A DNA stretch of 64,000 nucleotides from Chryseobacterium oranimense. Its GTDB lineage: Bacteria > Bacteroidota > Bacteroidia > Flavobacteriales > Weeksellaceae. The DNA lies in contig NZ_FQWT01000001.1 in the NCBI RefSeq assembly GCF_900129755.1, forward strand, positions 682,001 to 746,000, read 5' to 3'. Position numbers and translations under genes: made by a program. Under the pieces are notes generated by a model that was not told the origin of the DNA, searched no databases, and was given only the letters and a program-made list of their open reading frames with translations. The first letter of the stretch is position 1; the number at the start of each line of letters is the position of its first letter. Below, piece after piece: positions 11,804 through 64,000 of this stretch.

Positions 11804-14098
<2,295 letters not shown>

Positions 14099-14108
<10 letters not shown>

Positions 14109-15136
14109 AACAAATCGTGACCGGATTCACCGGAACTGAAAACTGTACGATGACTCCTATTACCAATGGACTGATAAATACTACCTATTTGGTGGAAGAT
14201 CATGATTCTGAGGAGAAATTTATCCTTCAGAAAATCAACAGACAGGTTTTTCATTTTCCTGAAATTGTCACCAATAATCACCTGCTGATCAACAAAATGC
14301 TGGAAAACGGGAATTATCCTTTGCAGTTGGTCAATATGAAGAAAACTCTATCTGGTAACCTGATGATGAACGATGATGAGGGAGAGTCATGGAGAATGCT
14401 CAGTTTCATTGAAGATACGAAGACATTTTTTAAAATTCCCGATTTAAAAACGGCTTATGAATCGGCAAAAGCTGTCGGAAGCTTTTTAAATACCGTAAAC
14501 CCTTCAGATCTGCCTGATATAAAAATCCCTATTCCTGATTTTATTAATTTTGAGAAAAGGATTTCAGATTATCAGATGTCGTTACAGAATGCTAATACTG
14601 ATCTGTTGAACAATGCAGAGCCAGAAATTGAATTAACGAATGCGCTGCTTTTTCTTCCGCAAAAATGGATTGAAATGGAAAAAGAAGGCCTGCTTCCCAA
14701 AAGAATCATCCACGGAGATCCTAATGTAAGAAATATACTTTTTGATAAGAATTCAAGTCCCTTGGCTGTTATTGACCTCGACACCGTAACGGTTTCTACC
14801 ATTCTGTATGACTTCGGCGATATGGCGAGGTCTTATACCAATACACTGGATGAAGATAATGGAAACGCAGCTGATAATTTTAATCCCCAGATTTACAGAA
14901 CTGTAAAAGACGGATTTTTACTGTATTTGAAAGAGAAACTAACTTTTGAAGAGCTTGAAAACCTGGATTACGCAGCACAGGTTGTCATTTATATCCAAGC
15001 TGTCCGTTTTCTGACTGACTATCTGAATGGAAGCACTTATTACTCTATAAAATATCCTGAACACAATCTGGACAGGACCAGAAATCAGCTGGAACTGCTG
15101 AGAGGGCTGAGAAAATATTTGAAAGATGACTTATAA
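14099..15136 (+). CDS. Phosphotransferase resembling N-acetylhexosamine 1-kinase (NahK-like)
   Basis: 345 residues of the aminoglycoside-phosphotransferase fold. The N-lobe has GLINTTYLVED and FILQKINRQVF. The catalytic loop is IIHGDPNVRNILF (about residues 203-215) and the metal-binding DxD-like segment is AVIDLDTVTVSTILYDFGDMAR. Architecture and length are close to Bifidobacterium NahK, which phosphorylates GlcNAc/GalNAc at C1. Operon position after a GalNAc-releasing GH109 and a nucleotidyltransferase supports that role. Homoserine or other small-molecule kinases of the same fold are the alternative. It starts inside the end of the upstream gene. Confidence 0.75.
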
Positions 15137-54759: not shown

Positions 54760-56703
54760 TTATCCTTTAAAATATTCTTCAAACAAAATATTTTCTGAAT
54801 TAGGAAGTTGCCACTTATTAATAAGAAACTCTAAAATCTTCCTACTTCTTTTCTCAATATCAGTTGTTTCCCAGCTATAATAATTTAAAAGTTCTTTTTC
54901 GGATTCATAGATAATATTATTATTATTGATAGCATTATTTATACGAATTTTGTGGGCATTGAAGTCTCTTAGTATTTGGCTATTATTTGACATAAATATA
55001 TTTCCTAAGGCATAAGAATATTTCCTTTTTTTTGCAACTCCCAAACGGTTGATGTCTTTATAGGAAGTTCTTATTTTCATCTCTTCTTCAGGATAAATCC
55101 TATTAACACTAATTTCTCGCTCTACCATATTTCCAGATAAATCTTCTTCATATTCTTTTAAAATAAAATGAATGCCATCCCAGGTATAAAAATAATTCCC
55201 AAGTGATAAATTACGGATTACCTCTTTCCATGTAAAATGTTTTACCCTATTTTTTAATAGTTGGTCTTTAAGAGAAATTCCAGATTCAGCTGCATTTCCG
55301 GTTCTAAAATATTTATTAATATCTCTAAAGGTAGCTTCCTGATTATAGTTAGTTTTATTACCATTTAGTAAAAAGCACATAATATTATGTCTCTCAGCAG
55401 CCCATAAAAATTGTTCTATAGTAAATAAGGTTTGTTCTTGTTCTTCGGAGATTACATCGTCTTCTTTTTGGGGTAACAGACGAACTAAAATTGCTAATAT
55501 CAGATTGAGCATATATCTACCGTAACCAAAGGGAAAGCTATTAAGCCTTAATAGAGATCTTTGAATATTAGAAGTGTAATGATATCTAAAGTCTGGATCC
55601 TGATCTACTTCGTATGGATTGTAGATGAAATACCACAATATGACGGATTCTTTCATACAGTTTAACCATTTTCGAAGCTCTATAGGATTCATCATATATT
55701 GATTATTATGAATATTCATTAAATCAAAATCTTTTTCAAATAGAATTTTTTGGTAAGACTTAAAATCACTAGCTACCATTTTTTCGTTGGAAAAATATAG
55801 CAGCCAAAAAGCTTTTAGAAAGGCATCGTCGTCCATCATTTTTTTAGGATTAGGATTTCGTCCAAGCCATTTATAGATTTCAAGCCATGTCTTATTGATA
55901 GAGTTTCGTTTGGCTAGTATTTGTGTTTTACCAAAATTTTGTTTTGACACAAGGTATAAAACTCTGTTCTTAAATCGTTCAAGTCCAGATAGCTGTTTGC
56001 CTCTAAAGTTCAGGGTCTCGAAAACCATAGAGATATCAAGATTACTTCCTGCTGTTTCACTAAGGTTGAGCACTGAAAAAAGTAAGCGTTCAGTAATTTT
56101 TGTAATGAGATCTTTAACGTTATTTTGTGACCATCCTTCTAATTTTTGTTGAAAAAATCCCTTAGCAAAATCTAAATTATAAGTGTAAAGAGTCTCTACA
56201 TCTTCTATACCATAGGATTCATCTTCAAATATTTCTCTGATTAAATAATTGTGAGAGGGTACATCTACATGATATCCAAATAAATATTTGTTTCCTAAAT
56301 TATTTATAAAAAAATATTCTTCAGTTATTTTCTGTTGATGCTCAGATTCTTTAAGCTTTTGACATAATTGAGAAAGCAAAATTAATATAGTTGTTAAGCG
56401 TTGCTGTCCGTCTACTAAATTATAAGCTTGATAATATTTCTCATTAAGCTTTACTTGCTTGTTTTCATAATCAATCAAATTTTCAAATCCTTCCTTGGAT
56501 AAATTTTCAAAATCGTAATCTGAAAAATTATTGATAGTAAGTATTCCTGTAAAATGATAAGCATTATTCTGCAAGTGGACATTTGAAAGATCTGCCCAAA
56601 GATCATCTAATTGAGCCTCTTCCCATGAGTAGCCTCGTTGATAGTCAGGAATACGAAATATTTTGTTATGGAATATCTGTTTAAATGGTAATATTTCAGA
56701 CAT
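54760..56703 (-). CDS. DUF262 protein with degenerate HNH domain (GmrSD-like)
   Basis: 647 residues. DUF262 is intact: FRIPDYQRGYSWEEAQLDDLW, YNLVDGQQRLTTILIL and FETLNFRGKQLSGLERFKNRVL. In the C-terminal DUF1524-like part the His-bearing segment of an HNH nuclease reads VNRIYPEE where the sister protein at 40173-42248 has IEHILPQN; the later SYALGNIFMSNNS is retained. The nuclease may therefore be inactive, or cut by another means. Local base use is AT-richer than the housekeeping genes. It sits beside a tyrosine recombinase and a methyltransferase operon, so a defence or mobile-island role is likely. Confidence 0.78.
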   Translation of the reverse strand: MSEILPFKQIFHNKIFRIPDYQRGYSWEEAQLDDLWADLSNVHLQNNAYHFTGILTINNFSDYDFENLSKEGFENLIDYENKQVKLNEKYYQAYNLVDGQQRLTTILILLSQLCQKLKESEHQQKITEEYFFINNLGNKYLFGYHVDVPSHNYLIREIFEDESYGIEDVETLYTYNLDFAKGFFQQKLEGWSQNNVKDLITKITERLLFSVLNLSETAGSNLDISMVFETLNFRGKQLSGLERFKNRVLYLVSKQNFGKTQILAKRNSINKTWLEIYKWLGRNPNPKKMMDDDAFLKAFWLLYFSNEKMVASDFKSYQKILFEKDFDLMNIHNNQYMMNPIELRKWLNCMKESVILWYFIYNPYEVDQDPDFRYHYTSNIQRSLLRLNSFPFGYGRYMLNLILAILVRLLPQKEDDVISEEQEQTLFTIEQFLWAAERHNIMCFLLNGNKTNYNQEATFRDINKYFRTGNAAESGISLKDQLLKNRVKHFTWKEVIRNLSLGNYFYTWDGIHFILKEYEEDLSGNMVEREISVNRIYPEEEMKIRTSYKDINRLGVAKKRKYSYALGNIFMSNNSQILRDFNAHKIRINNAINNNNIIYESEKELLNYYSWETTDIEKRSRKILEFLINKWQLPNSENILFEEYFKG

Positions 56704-56912: not shown

Positions 56913-58073
56913 TTATATTTTATCCCATTTTCCCATTTCTTTTATTTTAACATTATCAACAATTTTTGCATAAACTTGTGTTGTCCGAATATTTGTATGT
57001 CCTAACAATTTGCTTACTACTTCTATGGGAATGCCTAATGAAATTGATACTGTTGCAAAAGTATGTCTTGCCACATGGCATGTAAGTTTTTTATTTAATT
57101 CTAATGTAGTTCCAATTTTTTTCAAAACTCTATTGGTTACTTTATTACAATATACTTTGAAAATGTAATTTTCACTAAAGGGCTTTTCGGGGATAAAGCT
57201 TTTTGCTTTTTTACTGAGAGGAATATTTACTAAGTATCCTGTTTTGTGCATTCTGAGATGTATAGAGTCATTAATTATAGAATCCTCTGAGAAACTCTTT
57301 AAATCAGAATACCGAAGTCCTGTATAACAGGCGAATAAAAAATAACTAAGAATTTCCTTTTGTATTGGTTCAGAAAAATCATCTTTTAAATAATATTCGG
57401 TAAGTTTATTTAGCTCTTCAATTGAGAGAAAATCTCTCTTTCCATCAACTTTTTTTATTGAAGTATATTGAAATGGATTTGTTTTTATATATCCAAAACG
57501 AATAGAAATATTAATGAATGTTCGTAATACCCTCAAACTTTTACTTGCTGTATTCTCATTATTTCCGAGGGTATAAAGCATGTATTGTTTATAGTCATTA
57601 ATAAATTTCTCATTAATATCTGAAAAATAAATTTCACTTTTAAATTTAAGGATCTTGGTAATCTGAGATTTATATCCAAACCAGGTTTCTGATTTGAATT
57701 TAGCTTTGTTTTCTTCCAAATAACCTAAAATATAATCTGTGAAACTTTTTTCATCAGAATTATGATTCAATGATAGTAATCGTTCTTTAAACTGGGTTAA
57801 GGTTAGTGGAAATTCTTCATTGATAAAATTGTTAACCAATAATTTAATAGACTTTTTATCTATTGCCTCTAAAATCATATTATACCTTTCATGATTTTTA
57901 TTTTGAGTTTTGACTCTTTGATTTCTCAAGGACCAGTCTCGTAAAGGGATTGTAACAGGGGTGGCCGTTTCTATTTTTTTTCCTTTCAAAAATGCTCTTA
58001 AATAGATTGGATATAAACCTTGCTTGTTTTTTTCTCTTTTTTGTACAAACCGATAGCTTATCTGTATGCTCAT
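56913..58073 (-). CDS. Tyrosine recombinase, probable invertase of the adjacent methyltransferase cassette
   Basis: 386 residues with the Bacteroidota integrase layout: an arm-binding start (KREKNKQGLYPIYLRAF), a SAM-like core-binding domain (about 100-200), and the catalytic domain with Arg in CYTGLRYSDLKS, His-x-x-Arg in CHVARHTFATV, LLGHTNIRTTQVY for the second His and the nucleophile Tyr. All catalytic positions are visible. It ends 97 bp from one 80-bp inverted repeat of the methyltransferase cassette, reading away from it. By position it should carry out the inversion; alternatively it is the integrase of a mobile element. Confidence 0.85.
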   Translation of the reverse strand: MSIQISYRFVQKREKNKQGLYPIYLRAFLKGKKIETATPVTIPLRDWSLRNQRVKTQNKNHERYNMILEAIDKKSIKLLVNNFINEEFPLTLTQFKERLLSLNHNSDEKSFTDYILGYLEENKAKFKSETWFGYKSQITKILKFKSEIYFSDINEKFINDYKQYMLYTLGNNENTASKSLRVLRTFINISIRFGYIKTNPFQYTSIKKVDGKRDFLSIEELNKLTEYYLKDDFSEPIQKEILSYFLFACYTGLRYSDLKSFSEDSIINDSIHLRMHKTGYLVNIPLSKKAKSFIPEKPFSENYIFKVYCNKVTNRVLKKIGTTLELNKKLTCHVARHTFATVSISLGIPIEVVSKLLGHTNIRTTQVYAKIVDNVKIKEMGKWDKI

Positions 58074-58164
58074 AGTTACTGAAGTATTTGTGAAGTGAAT
58101 TTATTCATAATCTGCGAAGAGATAATTTTAAAATGATAAAAATCAGCAGATATTAAGGCAAATT

Positions 58165-59244
58165 ATGGAGATTGGAAAACCTATGCCTCTTGCATCAAAT
58201 AAAGGGAAAAGTTTTCAAGGGAGTATTGTGCTTGGTAAAGGGTTTGTTTTGACCTCGAAAGAGGCTTTAGATTTAATTGAGAAGGATCCGAGAAATAAAG
58301 AAGTTTTATTTCCATACTTAAATGGGGAGGACCTTAATAACGATCCTAATCAAGAGCCCTCCCGCTGGGTCATTAACTTTTTCGATTGGTCGGAAGAAAA
58401 GGCCCGTACTTATCCCGATTGCTTTGATATAGTAGAAAGATCCGTGAAACCTGAGCGATTAATACAGAAGGATAAAGGAGGTAAAGAAAAATGGTGGCAG
58501 TTTTTAAGACCAAGAAAAGAACTTTACAATGCCATATCTGAGTTAGACCAGGTAATGGTGATAAATAATCACACAAGACATCATGTTTTTGCTTTTTATT
58601 CTAAAAATATTGTTTATTCGCATGCGTTAACTGTAATTACAATTGATAGTCTCTCATATTATTCTATAATGACATCTCAAATTATGAATGAATGGGCTTG
58701 GCATAAGGGTTCTACGATGGGAACATCTACATTGAGATATACATCATCTCAGATATTTGAAACTTTTCCTTTCCCACCAAATATTTCAGAGAGTGAGAAT
58801 AATTTTTTAAAGAAATTAGGTGAAGAGTATCTAGCAATTCAGAGAAATATAATGAAATCAATGAATCTGGGATTGACTAAGATATATAACTTTTTTCATA
58901 ATAAGGACTTAAGGGTAGATGAAAATACTTCGGTGGATAATTATAATGATATTTTGAGATTACGCAATTTACAGGTTAAATTGGATATCGCTGTTTTGAA
59001 TTTGTTTGGCTGGTCTGATATAAATCCTAATCATAATTTTTATGATATAGAATATTTACCAGAAAATGATAGGACACGTTTTTCTATTCATCCGGAAGCA
59101 CGTAAAGAGATCCTAAAACGTTTGCTCTCACTCAACCATCAACGTTACAATGAGGAAGTATCTGAAAATTCAAAAAATATTAAAACTAAACATAAAAAGA
59201 CAGGTAATCAAAAGAAAGAAGCCAATTTCCCGAAGTTATTTTAA
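58165..59244 (+). CDS. Silent alternative C-terminal specificity cassette of the methyltransferase
   Basis: A frame of 359 codons from ATG 58165. Its first 80 bp after the ATG (from 58171) are identical, inverted, to methyltransferase codons beginning at residue 882. It encodes a diverged copy of that protein's tail: conserved flanks (KDPRNKEVLFPYLNGEDLNND, SRWVINFFDW, HPEARKEILKRLL) surround a divergent centre, as in a target-recognition domain. There is no methyltransferase catalytic domain and no promoter recognised upstream. Inversion of 58171-60395 would join it in frame to the upstream 881 residues, giving a 1238-residue protein. Its stop overlaps the opposing gene's stop. Confidence 0.88.
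   Translation: MEIGKPMPLASNKGKSFQGSIVLGKGFVLTSKEALDLIEKDPRNKEVLFPYLNGEDLNNDPNQEPSRWVINFFDWSEEKARTYPDCFDIVERSVKPERLIQKDKGGKEKWWQFLRPRKELYNAISELDQVMVINNHTRHHVFAFYSKNIVYSHALTVITIDSLSYYSIMTSQIMNEWAWHKGSTMGTSTLRYTSSQIFETFPFPPNISESENNFLKKLGEEYLAIQRNIMKSMNLGLTKIYNFFHNKDLRVDENTSVDNYNDILRLRNLQVKLDIAVLNLFGWSDINPNHNFYDIEYLPENDRTRFSIHPEARKEILKRLLSLNHQRYNEEVSENSKNIKTKHKKTGNQKKEANFPKLF
58171..58250 (+). repeat. 80-bp inverted repeat, left arm (invertible cassette boundary)
   Basis: Identical to the reverse complement of 60316-60395 over 80 bp; mismatches begin at once on both sides. It encodes IGKPMPLASNKGKSFQGSI and following residues in the same frame in both copies. Confidence 0.95.
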
Positions 59245-62200
59245 TCTTCGGGAAATAAAGTATTATTTGAATTTATAGAATCAAACTTTGGGCTCTGTCT
59301 ACCGACGGTTTTATCAAAAAAGTTTACTTTTGATTGTCCATTAAATTGCTTTAAGTTTAATAACAATAACCTTTTTAGGATTTCTTTTCTTGTATCTGGA
59401 TGAATTGTAAATCGAATATTATCATTTCCTGGTAAATGTTCTAATGTATAAAAATCATGTTTTAATTTAAGGTCATTCCATCCATAAAAGGACAACACTA
59501 AATTATCCAAATGAGACTGCAAACGTCTCAGTTCGTTTATACTATTTGCTATTTCATAATAGTCAACATCATTATATTTTTGTAGATGTTTTTTCAACCA
59601 CACATTAGTACCATCATTCAAATTTCTATCATGAAAAAAATTATAGATCTTTGTTAAACCAACTTTAATTCGATTCATTATTTCTTTGCGTACGGAAAAA
59701 TATGACTTAGCTAATATTTCAAAATTGCTTTTTGCCGTATCAGCTATTATTGGCAATGGAAAGGTTTCGAATACATCTGATGGAGTGTAACGAGTATCAG
59801 ACTTTAAGGCAGAAGCATATTTTTGTACCCAAGATTGATGTATAGAATTCTGTAATAAGCCAAACGTTAAATAATCATCAAATGTAAGTACAATACACAT
59901 CATAGAAATAACCTGGCTCTTAGGCACAAAAGTAAAGGCTAAAGTTTTACTTACTTGTGCAATCACCATTACCTGGTCTAACTCAGATATGGCATTGTAA
60001 AGAGCAGGTCTTTTCTCACCATATATCCACCACTTTTGAGGTAAGGGTTTTCTTAATGCATATATTCCGATAATTTCATTATCATCATTATCTCTTTTCC
60101 ATCGTTGTCTTTCTGGTTTAACTAACCTCTCTATGATTTCATAACAATCAGGATAAGTCTTTGCTTTCTCTTCATCCCAATCAAAGAAATTAATAACCCA
60201 TCTGGATGGTTTTTGTTCTGGATCATTATTCAAATCGTCACCATTTAAGTATGGGAAAAGTACATCTTTGTTACGTGGATCTTTTTTTATGAGTTTTTCT
60301 GCTTCTTCAGGAGATAAAACAAACCCTTTACCAAGCACAATACTCCCTTGAAAACTTTTCCCTTTATTTGATGCAAGAGGCATAGGTTTTCCAATAACTT
60401 CGGAATCATCTAAATAAGAAGTTATTCTTTCTACGGTCTTATTGTCTAAAATAATTTTATTTTTCCATTCGCCTTTATGAATGGTAATTAATGAAACTTC
60501 TACTGCAGCCTGACCTGGCCACTTCATTGAACGAATAGCATGGTTAATCACTCCATTACTTGAACAGATGACGTCCAAACCTCCTTCTCGGGCGGAACCT
60601 TGTGCAATAGTATTGGTAGAAATTAAAGATTGGAAGCCATTGATTTTAATAACATCAAAGATTCTTCTGAAAAAATAAGTTACTAAATCTACTGCGCCAA
60701 TCGGTCGATATGTATATTTTATATATTCAAGGAAATTAGTTCCATAATTTCCACTTAACTTTTGTCCACCTAAAAATGGTGGATTTCCTAAAATACAGTC
60801 AAATCCTCCATTTTGGAAAACTTCCGGGAATTCTAAAAACCAATGAAAGAATTTCTTCTGTTCAGCAATCACCATACTAGCTCCACGATCTAAGATTTGC
60901 GCACCGGAATTAAGATAAGTTTTATATTGACTATATGTTGTTAGTTTGTCTTTATTTTCTGCTGTTTTGGGAATGAAAAATTGTGCAACTTGCAAATCAG
61001 CCAGTTGTTTTAGTCTATACCATTTCTTGCCATTGGTTAAATCATAATATATTTTGGATTTTTGTGCAATCTGTTCAGAAGTATGCTCTGGCAATTGATT
61101 GAATTGTTCCATCGATTTTTGTATATCTGCAAAATCAGTATCTGCTGTATTTAAATCAAATAATTCGCTTATTTGAAGTTTACGTTCTGTATCATTACGT
61201 TTTTTAAAAGCAGATGCTATTGCCTTATCATCGCCTGCTAAAGCTTTAAATGCTTCACTGGCAATCCCATCGTGAAGATTTTCATAGCGGGCCAATCCTA
61301 TAATTGCATTTCCATTTTTGATATGGTGATCTAAAAAGTTTAATGGTTCACCTGGGTCATGAGCTTCCAACCATAGAGCTACTTTACAAAGTTCTACAGC
61401 CAATGGATTTAAATCAACCCCGTAAATACAATTTTTAATGGCATCCCTAATTGCAGTTCGAAGAACAGAAGGTGTTGGCTGGTCTTCATTACTTCGTAAG
61501 CGTGCTAATTCGAATCCAATTTTTCTGGCGGCAGAAAGTAAAATATGTCCGCTTCCGCAGGCAACATCACATACTGTAATGCTTAATAATGCTTTTTCTG
61601 GATCGGCTTCTTTAAGTTTGCTTTCTATGATATGATCTAATGAATGAGCAATAAGAGGTTTTACAAGTTCTTCTGGAGTGTAGTGTGATCCTGATGCTGA
61701 TCGATCATTTCCTTGTTTAAATCTGAATTCTCCATTTTCTACTACAGGCTCAAATTCTAGTAGTCCTTCATACACAGAACCAAATTCTTCTACATCCAGA
61801 TCGGCATAGTTTACCCGAATGGTTTGTTGGTTTTCATTCTCGAAAGTAACTAAGTATTTAAAAACATTGAGTACATATTTATTGTTTAGTATCGTTTTTT
61901 CAATACTACCGATTGCATTTTGGTTAAAAATACCAGACCCAAGAGCATCAATTCCCAATTCTTTACCATAATGGCTATCTTCAAAAAGTCTAAATGTAGT
62001 TAACAATGACTGCCACAAATCTGTTTTTTTCGGATCAATATAAAGTGATTTACTAACAAGATAAGTGAGACGTTGGATACTGTAATATTGGTAGTAAATA
62101 TCTTTAAGTTTCTTTTCACTCTCTGTAAGATTTTCTTTATAAATAAGATTTCGTTCTTCTATGACTAAAAGAAACAAGATACGATACACTGAACGCAAGA

Positions 62201-63038
62201 TATGCAGATAATATTCTTTTGCAGATAATTTTTCTTCTTCAATAGCATTTCTCAGTTCAAAATTTTCTGGCTGCGAAAGTAATCCGTTTGCTAAAGCTAT
62301 TATAGACTGTTCTACGGCTAAACTTAATCGCTCGCGAATACGAGACCCAGACGCTAAGGCTTCATTATGATAAAATTCTAGGATGGAATCTTTTCCATCT
62401 TCTTTTTTATCACTAATACGAGATGAGTGAAGTAATCGATAAAAAATTGCAAACTCTGCATAATGCCCTTCTTCCATCATTTGCTCAAGATTGAATTCAA
62501 GATAACTTAATCTTGAAAGCCTTGTGGCATCACGGAGTACACGGAAATGGTTCCCATTGGTTACAAACCCATAAATATGTTCGGTAGAATTGATATATTC
62601 CTGGATTAATGAATGTGGTGAAAGTCTTGGTCCATTTTCTGCCTTTTTATCCATGGATTGCTCACTACCAACAATATGTATTGGGAAGTCATCTTTATTA
62701 GAGGCTCTATAAGATACAGCAAAAGATTTTCCGTTAACAATTTCTGCATTAGAAAGGGAGACTTGATATCCTAAAAGGTTAAGAAGAGGGACAATCCAAT
62801 ATTTTCGTGTCTCTGAAATTCCTTTATCTGTCCCAGAAAAAGCATTCTTTTTTTGTTTAAAAATTTGCCAATGAGTATTTAGCAAGCTCCAGGCATTGCT
62901 TATTTCATCTCGGACCTGTTCATTTGGCTTTAAACCAAAATCTTGTGGTTTTTGGAAGCTGATATCATCCTGGCGTATTTTTTCCAGGATTTCACTTGTG
63001 AATATATTTCCTTGTATATTTATTGTTGTTAGTTTCAT
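59241..63038 (-). CDS. Adenine-specific DNA methyltransferase (Eco57I/PglX/DrmMI type) with switchable C-terminus
   Basis: 1265 residues. SAM motif I is TVCDVACGSGHILLSAAR (about residue 490) and the amino-methyltransferase motif IV is GNPPFLGG (about 750), as in N6-adenine enzymes. The N-terminal 250 residues resemble the nuclease-like region of type IIG enzymes (LIQEYINSTEHIYGFVTNGNHFRVLRD) but lack an evident D-ExK set, so nuclease activity is doubtful. Residues 882-1265 are the specificity part inside the invertible segment; the alternative tail is 27 residues shorter. Its start is 3 bp from the helicase gene stop, so the two are an operon. It probably marks host DNA for a phage-defence system. 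Confidence 0.87.
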   Translation of the reverse strand: MKLTTINIQGNIFTSEILEKIRQDDISFQKPQDFGLKPNEQVRDEISNAWSLLNTHWQIFKQKKNAFSGTDKGISETRKYWIVPLLNLLGYQVSLSNAEIVNGKSFAVSYRASNKDDFPIHIVGSEQSMDKKAENGPRLSPHSLIQEYINSTEHIYGFVTNGNHFRVLRDATRLSRLSYLEFNLEQMMEEGHYAEFAIFYRLLHSSRISDKKEDGKDSILEFYHNEALASGSRIRERLSLAVEQSIIALANGLLSQPENFELRNAIEEEKLSAKEYYLHILRSVYRILFLLVIEERNLIYKENLTESEKKLKDIYYQYYSIQRLTYLVSKSLYIDPKKTDLWQSLLTTFRLFEDSHYGKELGIDALGSGIFNQNAIGSIEKTILNNKYVLNVFKYLVTFENENQQTIRVNYADLDVEEFGSVYEGLLEFEPVVENGEFRFKQGNDRSASGSHYTPEELVKPLIAHSLDHIIESKLKEADPEKALLSITVCDVACGSGHILLSAARKIGFELARLRSNEDQPTPSVLRTAIRDAIKNCIYGVDLNPLAVELCKVALWLEAHDPGEPLNFLDHHIKNGNAIIGLARYENLHDGIASEAFKALAGDDKAIASAFKKRNDTERKLQISELFDLNTADTDFADIQKSMEQFNQLPEHTSEQIAQKSKIYYDLTNGKKWYRLKQLADLQVAQFFIPKTAENKDKLTTYSQYKTYLNSGAQILDRGASMVIAEQKKFFHWFLEFPEVFQNGGFDCILGNPPFLGGQKLSGNYGTNFLEYIKYTYRPIGAVDLVTYFFRRIFDVIKINGFQSLISTNTIAQGSAREGGLDVICSSNGVINHAIRSMKWPGQAAVEVSLITIHKGEWKNKIILDNKTVERITSYLDDSEVIGKPMPLASNKGKSFQGSIVLGKGFVLSPEEAEKLIKKDPRNKDVLFPYLNGDDLNNDPEQKPSRWVINFFDWDEEKAKTYPDCYEIIERLVKPERQRWKRDNDDNEIIGIYALRKPLPQKWWIYGEKRPALYNAISELDQVMVIAQVSKTLAFTFVPKSQVISMMCIVLTFDDYLTFGLLQNSIHQSWVQKYASALKSDTRYTPSDVFETFPLPIIADTAKSNFEILAKSYFSVRKEIMNRIKVGLTKIYNFFHDRNLNDGTNVWLKKHLQKYNDVDYYEIANSINELRRLQSHLDNLVLSFYGWNDLKLKHDFYTLEHLPGNDNIRFTIHPDTRKEILKRLLLLNLKQFNGQSKVNFFDKTVGRQSPKFDSINSNNTLFPED
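60316..60395 (-). repeat. 80-bp inverted repeat, right arm (inside the methyltransferase gene)
   Basis: Reverse complement of 58171-58250, perfect over 80 bp. It falls at the junction between the catalytic region and the specificity tail of the methyltransferase, at residue 882. Confidence 0.95.
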
Positions 63039-63041
63039 GGT

Positions 63042-64000
63042 TTAGAAAAGTGCTTTAGGTTTTGGCAAGAGGATGTATACTCCCATAACATCAGGAGGTA
63101 ATACTGGAGTAGATTTTTCATAGCTTCGTCCCCCAATTAATGTTTTGAATCTGCCATGTGCTTCTACCAATTTATCTGCACGTTGAGTTGCTAGTTCTAT
63201 AAACGCATCTTTCTTAGTCTCAAAAGACTTTAATTCTACATTTAAAAGTTGTTGCTGCTGTTCCAATGCCATATTGCTCAAAGGTATTGCGTTATTCAAT
63301 AAATGTTGAGCTTTTGTAAAGTCTACAGGCTGTAAACCTTCTGAATTCTCAGTATATCCCCACAAATACATTTCTTCAGCTACTGATTCATTTTTAGAAC
63401 GTACTTCTTTTACAACATTTCTCACTCTAAACATGACCAGAGTTGTTTTACTTTCAACACTGTCAGTTTGGATTACACTTGTTCTTGCTAAACCATAAGG
63501 ATTGCCTTGTTCTTCAAAAGCATTACTTATAATATAATGGCAAAGTTGTTCTACAAAGCGATGATTTCTTCCTATATATTGATAATTCTTAGGAGTAGGT
63601 GAAGTAAAGGCAATCCGAGTTTCTGTTTTGCCTTTCAACTGTTCTGTTTTAGACAATAGAGCAACTTGTAAGTGTTTTGGAAGATTTGTTGTTTGTACTT
63701 TATATCCTTCCAAATCAGTTGTAACTGACGCTCCTAATGCTTGTAACGCAAATACTGAAAAATTCTCTACAATCTCAGGATCTCCAATGGCTTCATCTAC
63801 TTCTTGTAAATCCTTTTTAATAGCTTCGGCATCTACAGATTCTTGGGCGAAAATTGATCGTAAGTTTTCTCCTCTTTTACGAGCCATTTCTAGTTCATTA
63901 TCAATTCTTATTTTGTCTTCTGCAAATAGTGTTAATTGTTCTGCTTCTGATTCAGTCTTCAAAAGTTTTTGAGTCAATTCAGTCATCAATGACTTATTAT
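63042..64000 (-). CDS. C-terminal part of a large SNF2-like helicase (DrmD-like), cut by the window
   Basis: The frame is open to the right edge, so only the last approximately 319 residues are seen and the true start is outside; the ATG at 63984-63986 is internal. Segments such as FALQALGASVTTDLEGYKV, YQYIGRNHRFVEQLCHYIISNAFEEQ, TTLVMFRVRNVVKEV and IELATQRADKLVEAHGRFK match the tail found in DISARM-type DrmD and related SNF2/HepA-like helicases, by memory. No helicase motif is in view. Position directly before a DrmMI-type methyltransferase supports the assignment. Confidence 0.6.
   Translation of the reverse strand, partial: NKSLMTELTQKLLKTESEAEQLTLFAEDKIRIDNELEMARKRGENLRSIFAQESVDAEAIKKDLQEVDEAIGDPEIVENFSVFALQALGASVTTDLEGYKVQTTNLPKHLQVALLSKTEQLKGKTETRIAFTSPTPKNYQYIGRNHRFVEQLCHYIISNAFEEQGNPYGLARTSVIQTDSVESKTTLVMFRVRNVVKEVRSKNESVAEEMYLWGYTENSEGLQPVDFTKAQHLLNNAIPLSNMALEQQQQLLNVELKSFETKKDAFIELATQRADKLVEAHGRFKTLIGGRSYEKSTPVLPPDVMGVYILLPKPKALF

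Follow-up and report, generated by a model that had tools for sequence, protein, structure and literature searches.

Invertible specificity is already known from pneumococcal hsdS and from BREX PglX, and ARMADA is known as well. At the pneumococcal cod/Spn556II locus, extra hsdS copies, inverted-repeat pairs of 15, 298 and 85 bp and a local tyrosine recombinase go together with a combinatorial exchange of target-recognition domains (TRDs), as described in the available portion of PMC4948785. In the BREX system of Lactobacillus rhamnosus, a full and a partial PglX are separated by an integrase, and heterogeneity is linked to phase variation (PMC7513527, available sections). For MmeI, a Type IIL enzyme, the accessible text of PMC4833311 and PDB 5hr4 assign the reading of base pairs 1-2 to TRD-N and of the remainder to TRD-C. 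ARMADA Type I has the gene order YprA-like helicase, BrxHII-like SNF2 helicase and PglX-like methyltransferase, with a YprA homologue most like that of Druantia (Bell et al. 2025 preprint, PMC12458937), and the phage tests in the accessible part of that preprint concern Type II. Here we describe a locus of Chryseobacterium oranimense within a stretch of 64,000 nucleotides (contig NZ_FQWT01000001.1, forward-strand positions 682,001 to 746,000; hereafter the window, in whose numbering features are given), in which the methyltransferase gene, part of a predicted ARMADA Type I operon, contains two nested pairs of perfect inverted repeats. Based on comparative sequence data, we estimate at roughly 0.83 the probability that this arrangement is invertible and exchanges half-TRDs independently, likely through an adjacent tyrosine recombinase, to give four predicted specificities.

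Two nested inverted-repeat pairs in a methyltransferase gene

The gene (59241..63038, minus strand) encodes a single-chain adenine methyltransferase of 1265 aa, of the Eco57I/MmeI type and PglX-like, with a constant part (residues 1-881) and a predicted exchangeable tail (residues 882-1265). An earlier note on this DNA had drawn attention to a perfect 80-bp inverted repeat (IR1), which proved to be the longest exact pair in the window, with one copy in the expressed gene (60316..60395) and the other in an alternative tail (58171..58250). The next-longest exact inverted pairs measure 41 bp, inside the cassette, and 24 bp, elsewhere. This 41-bp pair (IR2) is perfect, lies within both tails and splits each at the start of the target-recognition fold; its copy in the expressed gene (59962..60002) is located around the codons for ISELDQVM (residues 1017-1024), and its partner in the alternative tail is at 58522..58562. 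The identity of IR1 stops abruptly at the outer edge, and inward it fades into the tails, which are homologous but have diverged (77% over 284 bp).

Between IR1 and IR2, the expressed gene contains an N-module of a long type (60003..60315, minus strand) that corresponds to the TRD-N of MmeI, and after IR2 a C-module (59244..59961, minus strand) with a compact TRD fold and C-terminal helices, ending in TLFPED. The alternative tail is built of a short-type N-module (58251..58521, plus strand) and a C-module ending in FPKLF (58563..59241, plus strand). It is encoded by a convergent open reading frame of 359 aa (58165..59244, plus strand) that is 54% identical to residues 881-1239, and a Pfam scan detected an MmeI_TRD domain in both tails (3e-8 in the alternative one). 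Perfect inverted repeats, an alternative coding tail and a local recombinase, i.e., the features of an invertible specificity cassette, are all present.

The two IR1 copies fall at one and the same codon position of reading frames that are homologous and convergent, with an equal frame at both, and an in-silico inversion at IR1 replaces residues 882-1265 (384 aa) by 357 residues while keeping the frame open, in agreement with the earlier note. That note had assumed one repeat pair and two forms; the IR1 pair stands, but the single pair does not, as IR2 is also present, and since there are two repeat pairs and not one, four forms are predicted instead of two. All four in-silico arrangements are open, at 1265 aa as assembled, 1238 aa with IR1 inverted, 1252 aa with IR2 inverted, and 1251 aa with both. 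Inversion at either IR1 or IR2 would exchange TRD halves independently, and we take the convergent tail as a silent store. IR1 as the sole switch point was considered and rejected, because relatives exchange C-modules versus N-modules with breakpoints at or near IR2.

The tails had been read as target-recognition domains, and domain matches, a profile comparison and a structure model now place them among MmeI-type TRDs. Pfam matches of the methyltransferase (Eco57I 7.8e-22, MmeI_Mtase 5e-16, MmeI_TRD 2.8e-12) combine an MmeI-type methyltransferase with a TRD, as in Type IIL enzymes. Both the methyltransferase and the target-recognition region are homologous to those of MmeI (profile E 2e-29), although the window tail itself is only ~16-21% identical. 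MmeI is a restriction enzyme in one chain and is not known to belong to a helicase operon; for the window protein, the Pfam scan returned no nuclease family, and no closer motif examination was made. In an AlphaFold model of the tail alone, built from 95 sequences (predicted local distance difference test score, pLDDT, 78.4), the C-module can be superposed on the CamA TRD, starting at model residue 148, which is residue 1019 of the window protein and lies inside IR2; a model of 836 residues from 11 sequences (pLDDT 51.6) was not used. By analogy with MmeI, the N-module may read the first base pairs and the C-module the remaining ones, and switching would change which phages are restricted. An N-module swap would then be predicted to alter the 5' portion of the methylated motif, and a C-module swap its 3' portion. 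The expressed C-module has K1079/D1081 at the place of the K806-D808 variant of MmeI, which gives G:C at the sixth base pair, a tentative correspondence drawn at low identity.

Rearranged states and conserved repeat DNA in relatives

A scan of one genome per species yielded 13 loci, six of which have the arrangement of the window: a Chryseobacterium metagenome-assembled genome (L013), Chryseobacterium sp. FH2 (L014), Flavobacterium endophyticum (L018), F. ichthyis (L022), F. ajazii (L023), and Chryseobacterium sp. E1 (L024). FH2 and E1 belong to the same genus as the window genome. Helicase and methyltransferase genes without a second tail were found at five loci (L016, L017, L019, L020, and L021, the first gene of the last being cut by a contig end), the contig of Mucilaginibacter roseus (L015) ends at the repeat, and L025 is a short fragment. 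A further cassette locus (L047), on a contig from a viral collection, is cut inside the expressed tail.

Rearranged states exist among these relatives, in agreement with the proposal of a cassette that would swap the specificity tail of a helicase-linked, single-chain methyltransferase by inversion. Between the window and E1, IR1 and IR2 are identical, the DNA between the IR2 copies (1399 versus 1396 bp) aligns in the same orientation with 1396 matches, no mismatch and 3 gap columns, and the adjoining 1000 bp of gene body show 995 matches; over 1300 bp on the recombinase side, there are 1245 matches and 48 mismatches. Around this core the N-modules have changed places: the expressed long N-module of the window is the silent one of E1 (311 matches, no mismatch, 2 gap columns), and the silent short N-module of the window is closest to the expressed one of E1 (256 matches, 11 mismatches, 23 gap columns). 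One IR1 inversion plus one IR2 inversion explains this swap around a core of unchanged orientation. The consensus of the expressed E1 N-module (L024, 12721-13006) is a blend, with 101 of 143 differing columns short-like, 33 long-like and 9 neither, which possibly reflects reads of two arrangements or could be an assembly error.

Other pairs of relatives differ in their C-modules. F. ichthyis and F. ajazii, whose gene bodies are 99.0% identical, have their N-modules in the same places (98% and 94% identity), with one C-module on opposite sides (87%) and the other replaced (62%). At all six loci with readable tails, one tail ends in LFPED and the other in KLF; the expressed tail is long plus LFPED in the window and L013, short plus LFPED in FH2 and F. 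ajazii, and short plus KLF in F. endophyticum and F. ichthyis. The draft assembly of FH2 has both tails joined to the gene body: on contig 12, the second tail is continued by 152 bp that match the gene body exactly (these are included in the 170-bp repeat arm of FH2), and contig 13 terminates in the IR1 core after the flank on the recombinase side. Since IR1 of FH2 is only 18-19 bp long, a single arrangement should assemble through, and both joins together are a hint that both arrangements may be present in the culture.

Module exchange is also visible in protein data. A search for stand-alone tails returned 869 proteins at E ≤ 1e-20, some presumably fragments of full-length genes; the best 120 of these include proteins from Elizabethkingia, Flavobacterium, Mucilaginibacter, Pedobacter, Sphingobacterium, Dysgonomonas, Niabella, Taibaiella, and Bacteroides fragilis. 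Judged by these stand-alone proteins, the cassette seems not to be limited to Flavobacteriia. We compared 120 full-length with 112 stand-alone proteins, drawn from the best 120 of 869 and the best 120 of 4208 with 8 of the 240 dropped for intermediate length, and 8 pairs proved to be identical over 120 aa or more at the C-terminal end. The identical run starts at tail residue 1, 2 or 30 for P0002 (E. miricola) with P0128 (E. occulta), where the entire 374-aa tail is identical, and for P0095 (B. fragilis) with P0138 and P0133; at the first residue of the IR2 motif for P0012/P0142, P0020/P0139, and P0038/P0125; and four residues before that motif for P0072/P0148. P0020, P0072, P0133, and P0138 are on short contigs and are possibly fragments, and the stand-alone protein P0119, labelled partial, was set aside. 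P0038 and P0125, both named Chryseobacterium koreense and encoded on contigs of 2,992,385 and 2,992,377 bp, are identical over 254 aa from IR2 on. Among 131 of 252 sequences passing a motif and length filter, 10 of 15 pairs of C-modules at least 99% identical were combined with a different N-module (five same-gene duplicates set aside; N-modules more than 12 aa apart in length were counted as different, unaligned). The IR2 motif IS[EQK][LV]D was common to both members in 14 of 14 full-length/stand-alone pairs, which were chosen for contigs of equal or near-equal size, a common contig being inferred from that size; one of these pairs was seen in part.

The second tail may also be considered as a specificity protein made in its own right, which would act in trans by competing with the methyltransferase body or joining it. 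It has its own ATG just before IR1 in the window, F. ichthyis and E1, a valine codon at that place in F. ajazii, and an ATG inside IR1 in L013 and F. endophyticum. However, the position and context of the start codon vary between loci, and stand-alone and full-length modules interchange as those of a cassette would, and we regard action in trans as highly unlikely.

At the DNA level, IR2 is the site with the most strongly conserved sequence. Across the seven loci with both copies, IR1 ranges from 18 to 251 bp and IR2 from 25 to 41 bp, the short IR1 copies narrow to ATGGGAAAACCTATGCC, and IR2 always contains ATATCTGAGTTAGACCAGGTAATGG. One forward and one reverse copy of this 25-mer, both exact, occur in each of the seven cassette genomes, and no copy with up to 3 mismatches was found in the five genomes with a cassette-less system, nor any in the M. 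roseus draft, where no tail was found. Cassette-less homologues have other residues at the IR2 position (IKTLKKYY, IESNNIVM, IKPLERVL, ISSKEMIL, and IAPLERVL). In 12 tails from six loci, with E1 omitted for the many indels of its assembly, an invariant amino acid with degenerate codons occupies 98 alignment columns, and a single codon is used in 10 of 12 such columns inside the repeat cores versus 6 of 86 elsewhere (Fisher p 3e-8, a test that counts related tails as independent and uses regions chosen after the repeats were known). Taken together, the nearly frozen codons, the 25-mer pattern and the different residues of cassette-less homologues suggest that DNA, and not protein alone, is conserved at the two repeat cores. 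Further perfect repeats within the tails were noted in L013 (13650-13680 / 13976-14006, 31 bp) and F. endophyticum (13160-13188 / 14198-14226, 29 bp; 12806-12831 / 14594-14619, 26 bp), perhaps as other exchange points or conversion tracts.

The tails might instead owe their diversity to homologous recombination, or to gene conversion, among the duplicated copies and with incoming DNA, and not to a programmed recombinase, the repeats being conversion tracts. The variable length of IR1 and the additional perfect pairs peculiar to single loci are what such tracts would produce, and C-modules have been replaced between close relatives, with exchange near the C-terminus too. Yet IR1 and IR2 are only 18-28 bp long in L013, FH2 and F. 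endophyticum, two genera share one IR2 core down to its synonymous positions, and a recombinase adjoins every cassette locus and none of the cassette-less ones (see below). We consider this explanation unlikely and favor inversion, rather than serial gene conversion, as the probable origin of the rearrangements.

Surveys at different E-value limits showed the methyltransferase to be rare in the genomes covered; they recovered 3 of 173 genomes in the genus (1e-30) and 4 of 320 in the family (1e-60), all with an opposite-strand tail (that of family genome G128 seen only in the genus survey), 5 of 395 in the order (1e-60), two of them, the own genome and G529, with such a tail, and 15 of 395 in the class (1e-40), where a tail was seen in the own genome only and the others were viewed with ~1.5 kb of flank or less. 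G235 of the family survey is seemingly L013, and G529 seemingly F. ichthyis. Plasmid records gave 106 matches, all below 60% identity, and phage records one. A survey of Mucilaginibacter with the stand-alone tail P0005 matched 0 of 120 genomes, an uninformative result; M. roseus itself was among the non-matching genomes. For M. roseus, both tails lie on one separate 2114-bp contig in the protein database, seemingly outside the surveyed genome set. On either side of the cassette, the M. roseus draft is interrupted (end of L015, start of G174:C3); long repeats alone may cause such breaks, and we give them little weight.

An adjacent tyrosine recombinase as the predicted invertase

A gene for a tyrosine recombinase of 386 aa, the predicted invertase (56913..58073, minus strand; Arm-DNA-bind_5, Phage_int_SAM_5, and Phage_integrase domains), is separated from IR1 by 97 bp and transcribed away from the cassette. 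The residues R, K, HxxR, H, and Y, which have established catalytic roles in this family, are invariant in eight aligned sequences, including M. roseus and leaving out E1 for its indels. All 8 cassette loci, the window among them, have the recombinase next to the cassette (that of FH2 is on a second contig ending in IR1), and it is found beside none of the 5 homologous loci without a cassette, one of which (L020) is on a contig ending ~1 kb past the gene; in cassette-less L019, a 30% match is located 6.6 kb away. Homologues in cassette loci are 80-84% identical, that of M. roseus 64%, and that of E1 is in pieces of 80-97%. The spacer between recombinase and IR1 (58074..58170) includes TGAAGTATTTGTGAAG (58080-58095), with TGAAG repeated at an 11-bp period, and this element does not vary among the 9 recombinase-cassette spacers compared. 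Some of these, several in number, are near-identical, and the element is kept also in M. roseus, whose recombinase is at 64% identity. It is a candidate arm-binding site or operator.

Whether the recombinase is a leftover island integrase unrelated to the cassette has to be weighed against this pattern. Its arm-binding domain is like that of phage integrases, and of the other loci compared only E1 yielded the GmrSD-type gene that lies beyond it; however, homologues are located beside the cassette, or at a contig end reaching it, in eight loci plus M. roseus, the gene is present as a single close copy in the window genome (the next match being 29% identical), and the 16-bp spacer element is invariant. 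A leftover integrase is therefore highly unlikely, and the adjacent recombinase would be the enzyme that catalyzes inversion, likely at both sites. The gene next to it (54760-56703) encodes a GmrSD_N/DUF262 protein of 647 aa; its homologue in E1 is likewise placed, and none was found in the available DNA of L013, F. endophyticum, F. ichthyis, and F. ajazii. A common core of IR1 and IR2 for one recombinase was also sought: none was apparent by eye, and a local repeat search at IR1 of the window returned weak imperfect palindromes only.

Several observations weigh against two-site inversion by this recombinase. The lack of a visible core common to IR1 and IR2, together with the fact that the local tyrosine recombinase PsrA of S. 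pneumoniae inverts only one of three repeat pairs (available part of PMC4948785), makes a second enzyme possible. Each assembly displays one arrangement, save the FH2 draft and the blended E1 consensus. L013 and FH2, with bodies 96.1% identical, have unrelated C-modules, and the expressed C-module of the window shares a TRD core with the silent one of F. ajazii while differing at the C-terminal end; both point to replacement from outside and to other exchange points too. IR1 copies of 80-251 bp in some loci would permit homologous recombination, and extra perfect pairs are specific to single loci (31 bp in L013; 29, 26, and 20 bp in F. endophyticum; 20 bp in F. ajazii). The exact IR2 25-mer, allowing up to 3 mismatches, was found in 1 of 395 genomes of the class, the own one, and elsewhere in Bacteroidota the motif reads ISKLD or ISQLD at the protein level. 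The mapping to MmeI rests on 16-21% identity, superposition of the whole tail on MmeI has a root-mean-square deviation of 15 Å, and the tail model is poor (pLDDT under 50) just before IR2. Weighing these points, we hold to independent inversion at the two repeat pairs. Somewhat less firmly, we think it likely that an ARMADA-type branch in Bacteroidota possesses a dedicated two-site shuffler of TRD-N and TRD-C, with 2 × 2 predicted self/non-self marks per lineage and a pool of modules shared between species, and thus a combinatorial repertoire of specificities for a defense system.

Operon context and comparison with known systems

Upstream of the methyltransferase gene, the window includes the C-terminal part (63042..63998, minus strand) of an SNF2/BrxHII-like helicase of 945 aa, whose gene runs past the window (contig C7:745042-747879), and beyond it a YprA/DruE-like helicase of 1742 aa is encoded at C7:747901-753129. 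The latter was scanned as two pieces, with DEAD on the first and Helicase_C along with the best PADLOC match, DruE (4.6e-42), on the second; MZB/DUF1998 scored below the Pfam cut-off (20.7 versus 24.2 bits). PADLOC matches were DpdE (1.2e-161), DrmD, and BrxHI/II for the SNF2 helicase and DrmMI (9.5e-233) for the methyltransferase. Farther out are acyltransfer, glycosyltransfer, and ketosynthase-type genes, presumably for flexirubin-like pigment synthesis.

These three gene types, in the order YprA > BrxHII > PglX and with a YprA-family helicase most similar to that of Druantia, are those of ARMADA Type I, and domain hits and gene order lead us to predict that the operon is an ARMADA Type I phage defense. 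DISARM, Druantia and Dpd were each considered in light of the PADLOC labels (2023 release; DrmMI, DruE, DpdE/DrmD), yet none of them fits the gene set, whereas ARMADA Type I does. The hallmark of DISARM class 1 is separate drmB (DUF1998) and drmC (PLD) genes, and neither was among the neighbors scanned, i.e., the presumed pigment genes and, on the other side, the recombinase and GmrSD_N genes. BREX, which is defined by a PglX above a curated cut-off along with pglZ/brxC, was rejected as well, with an NCBIfam BREX-1 PglX score of 61.5 bits versus a cut-off of 500 and no pglZ/brxC among the neighbors scanned; the earlier BREX work behind the L. rhamnosus report is reportedly that of Goldfarb 2015. 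A phase-variable type I restriction-modification system (hsdS, hsdM, and hsdR) was ruled out, as the methyltransferase is single-chain with its own TRD. Because its 2023 release labels each of the three operon genes by a different system (DrmMI, DpdE, DruE), none of them ARMADA, that version of PADLOC may assign ARMADA Type I loci wrongly.

If these predictions hold, an innate phage defense alters its self/non-self mark through a DNA flip at a natural joint of the target-recognition fold, and one clone would contain cells with up to four methylomes and restriction ranges. This would bear on the uneven restriction of phages and plasmids in Flavobacteriia and Bacteroides, and on how cells survive while switching their own protective mark. 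Natural in-frame swaps of half-TRDs would also be parts for building methyltransferases with new targets, and the locus would be a ready test system, with four predicted forms, four junction PCRs, and four methylomes.

The earlier note had held the layout to be undescribed in Flavobacteriia; no such system appears among the open-licence literature matches listed, nor does a TRD cassette of the invertible kind for ARMADA, DISARM or Type IIL enzymes. The cassette's apparent spread extends further than that class. The available parts of PMC5903667, PMC10939037, PMC11868660, and PMC12707154 likewise contain no invertible TRD cassette. That note was also without IR2, the tyrosine recombinase gene, the remainder of the operon and the ARMADA Type I context. 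Unlike the window operon, ARMADA Type I as presented in the accessible text of PMC12458937 has no invertible specificity cassette, and the terms inversion, invert, and phase variation are absent from that text. The BREX case of L. rhamnosus differs in being a BREX-1 operon of another layout, with no two-site exchange of TRD-N and TRD-C described in the available sections of PMC7513527. The pneumococcal hsdS/PsrA system is similar in its several repeat pairs, local tyrosine recombinase and combinatorial TRD exchange, but it acts on a separate type I specificity subunit with three hsdS genes, whereas in the window the part to be exchanged is the C-terminal tail of a methyltransferase that is single-chain and encoded in a helicase operon, and one of the repeat pairs falls at the boundary between TRD-N and TRD-C. 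Overall, what appears new, as predicted from sequence comparison, is a two-site 2 × 2 shuffler within a methyltransferase of one chain, accompanied in protein data by stand-alone tails from across Bacteroidota.

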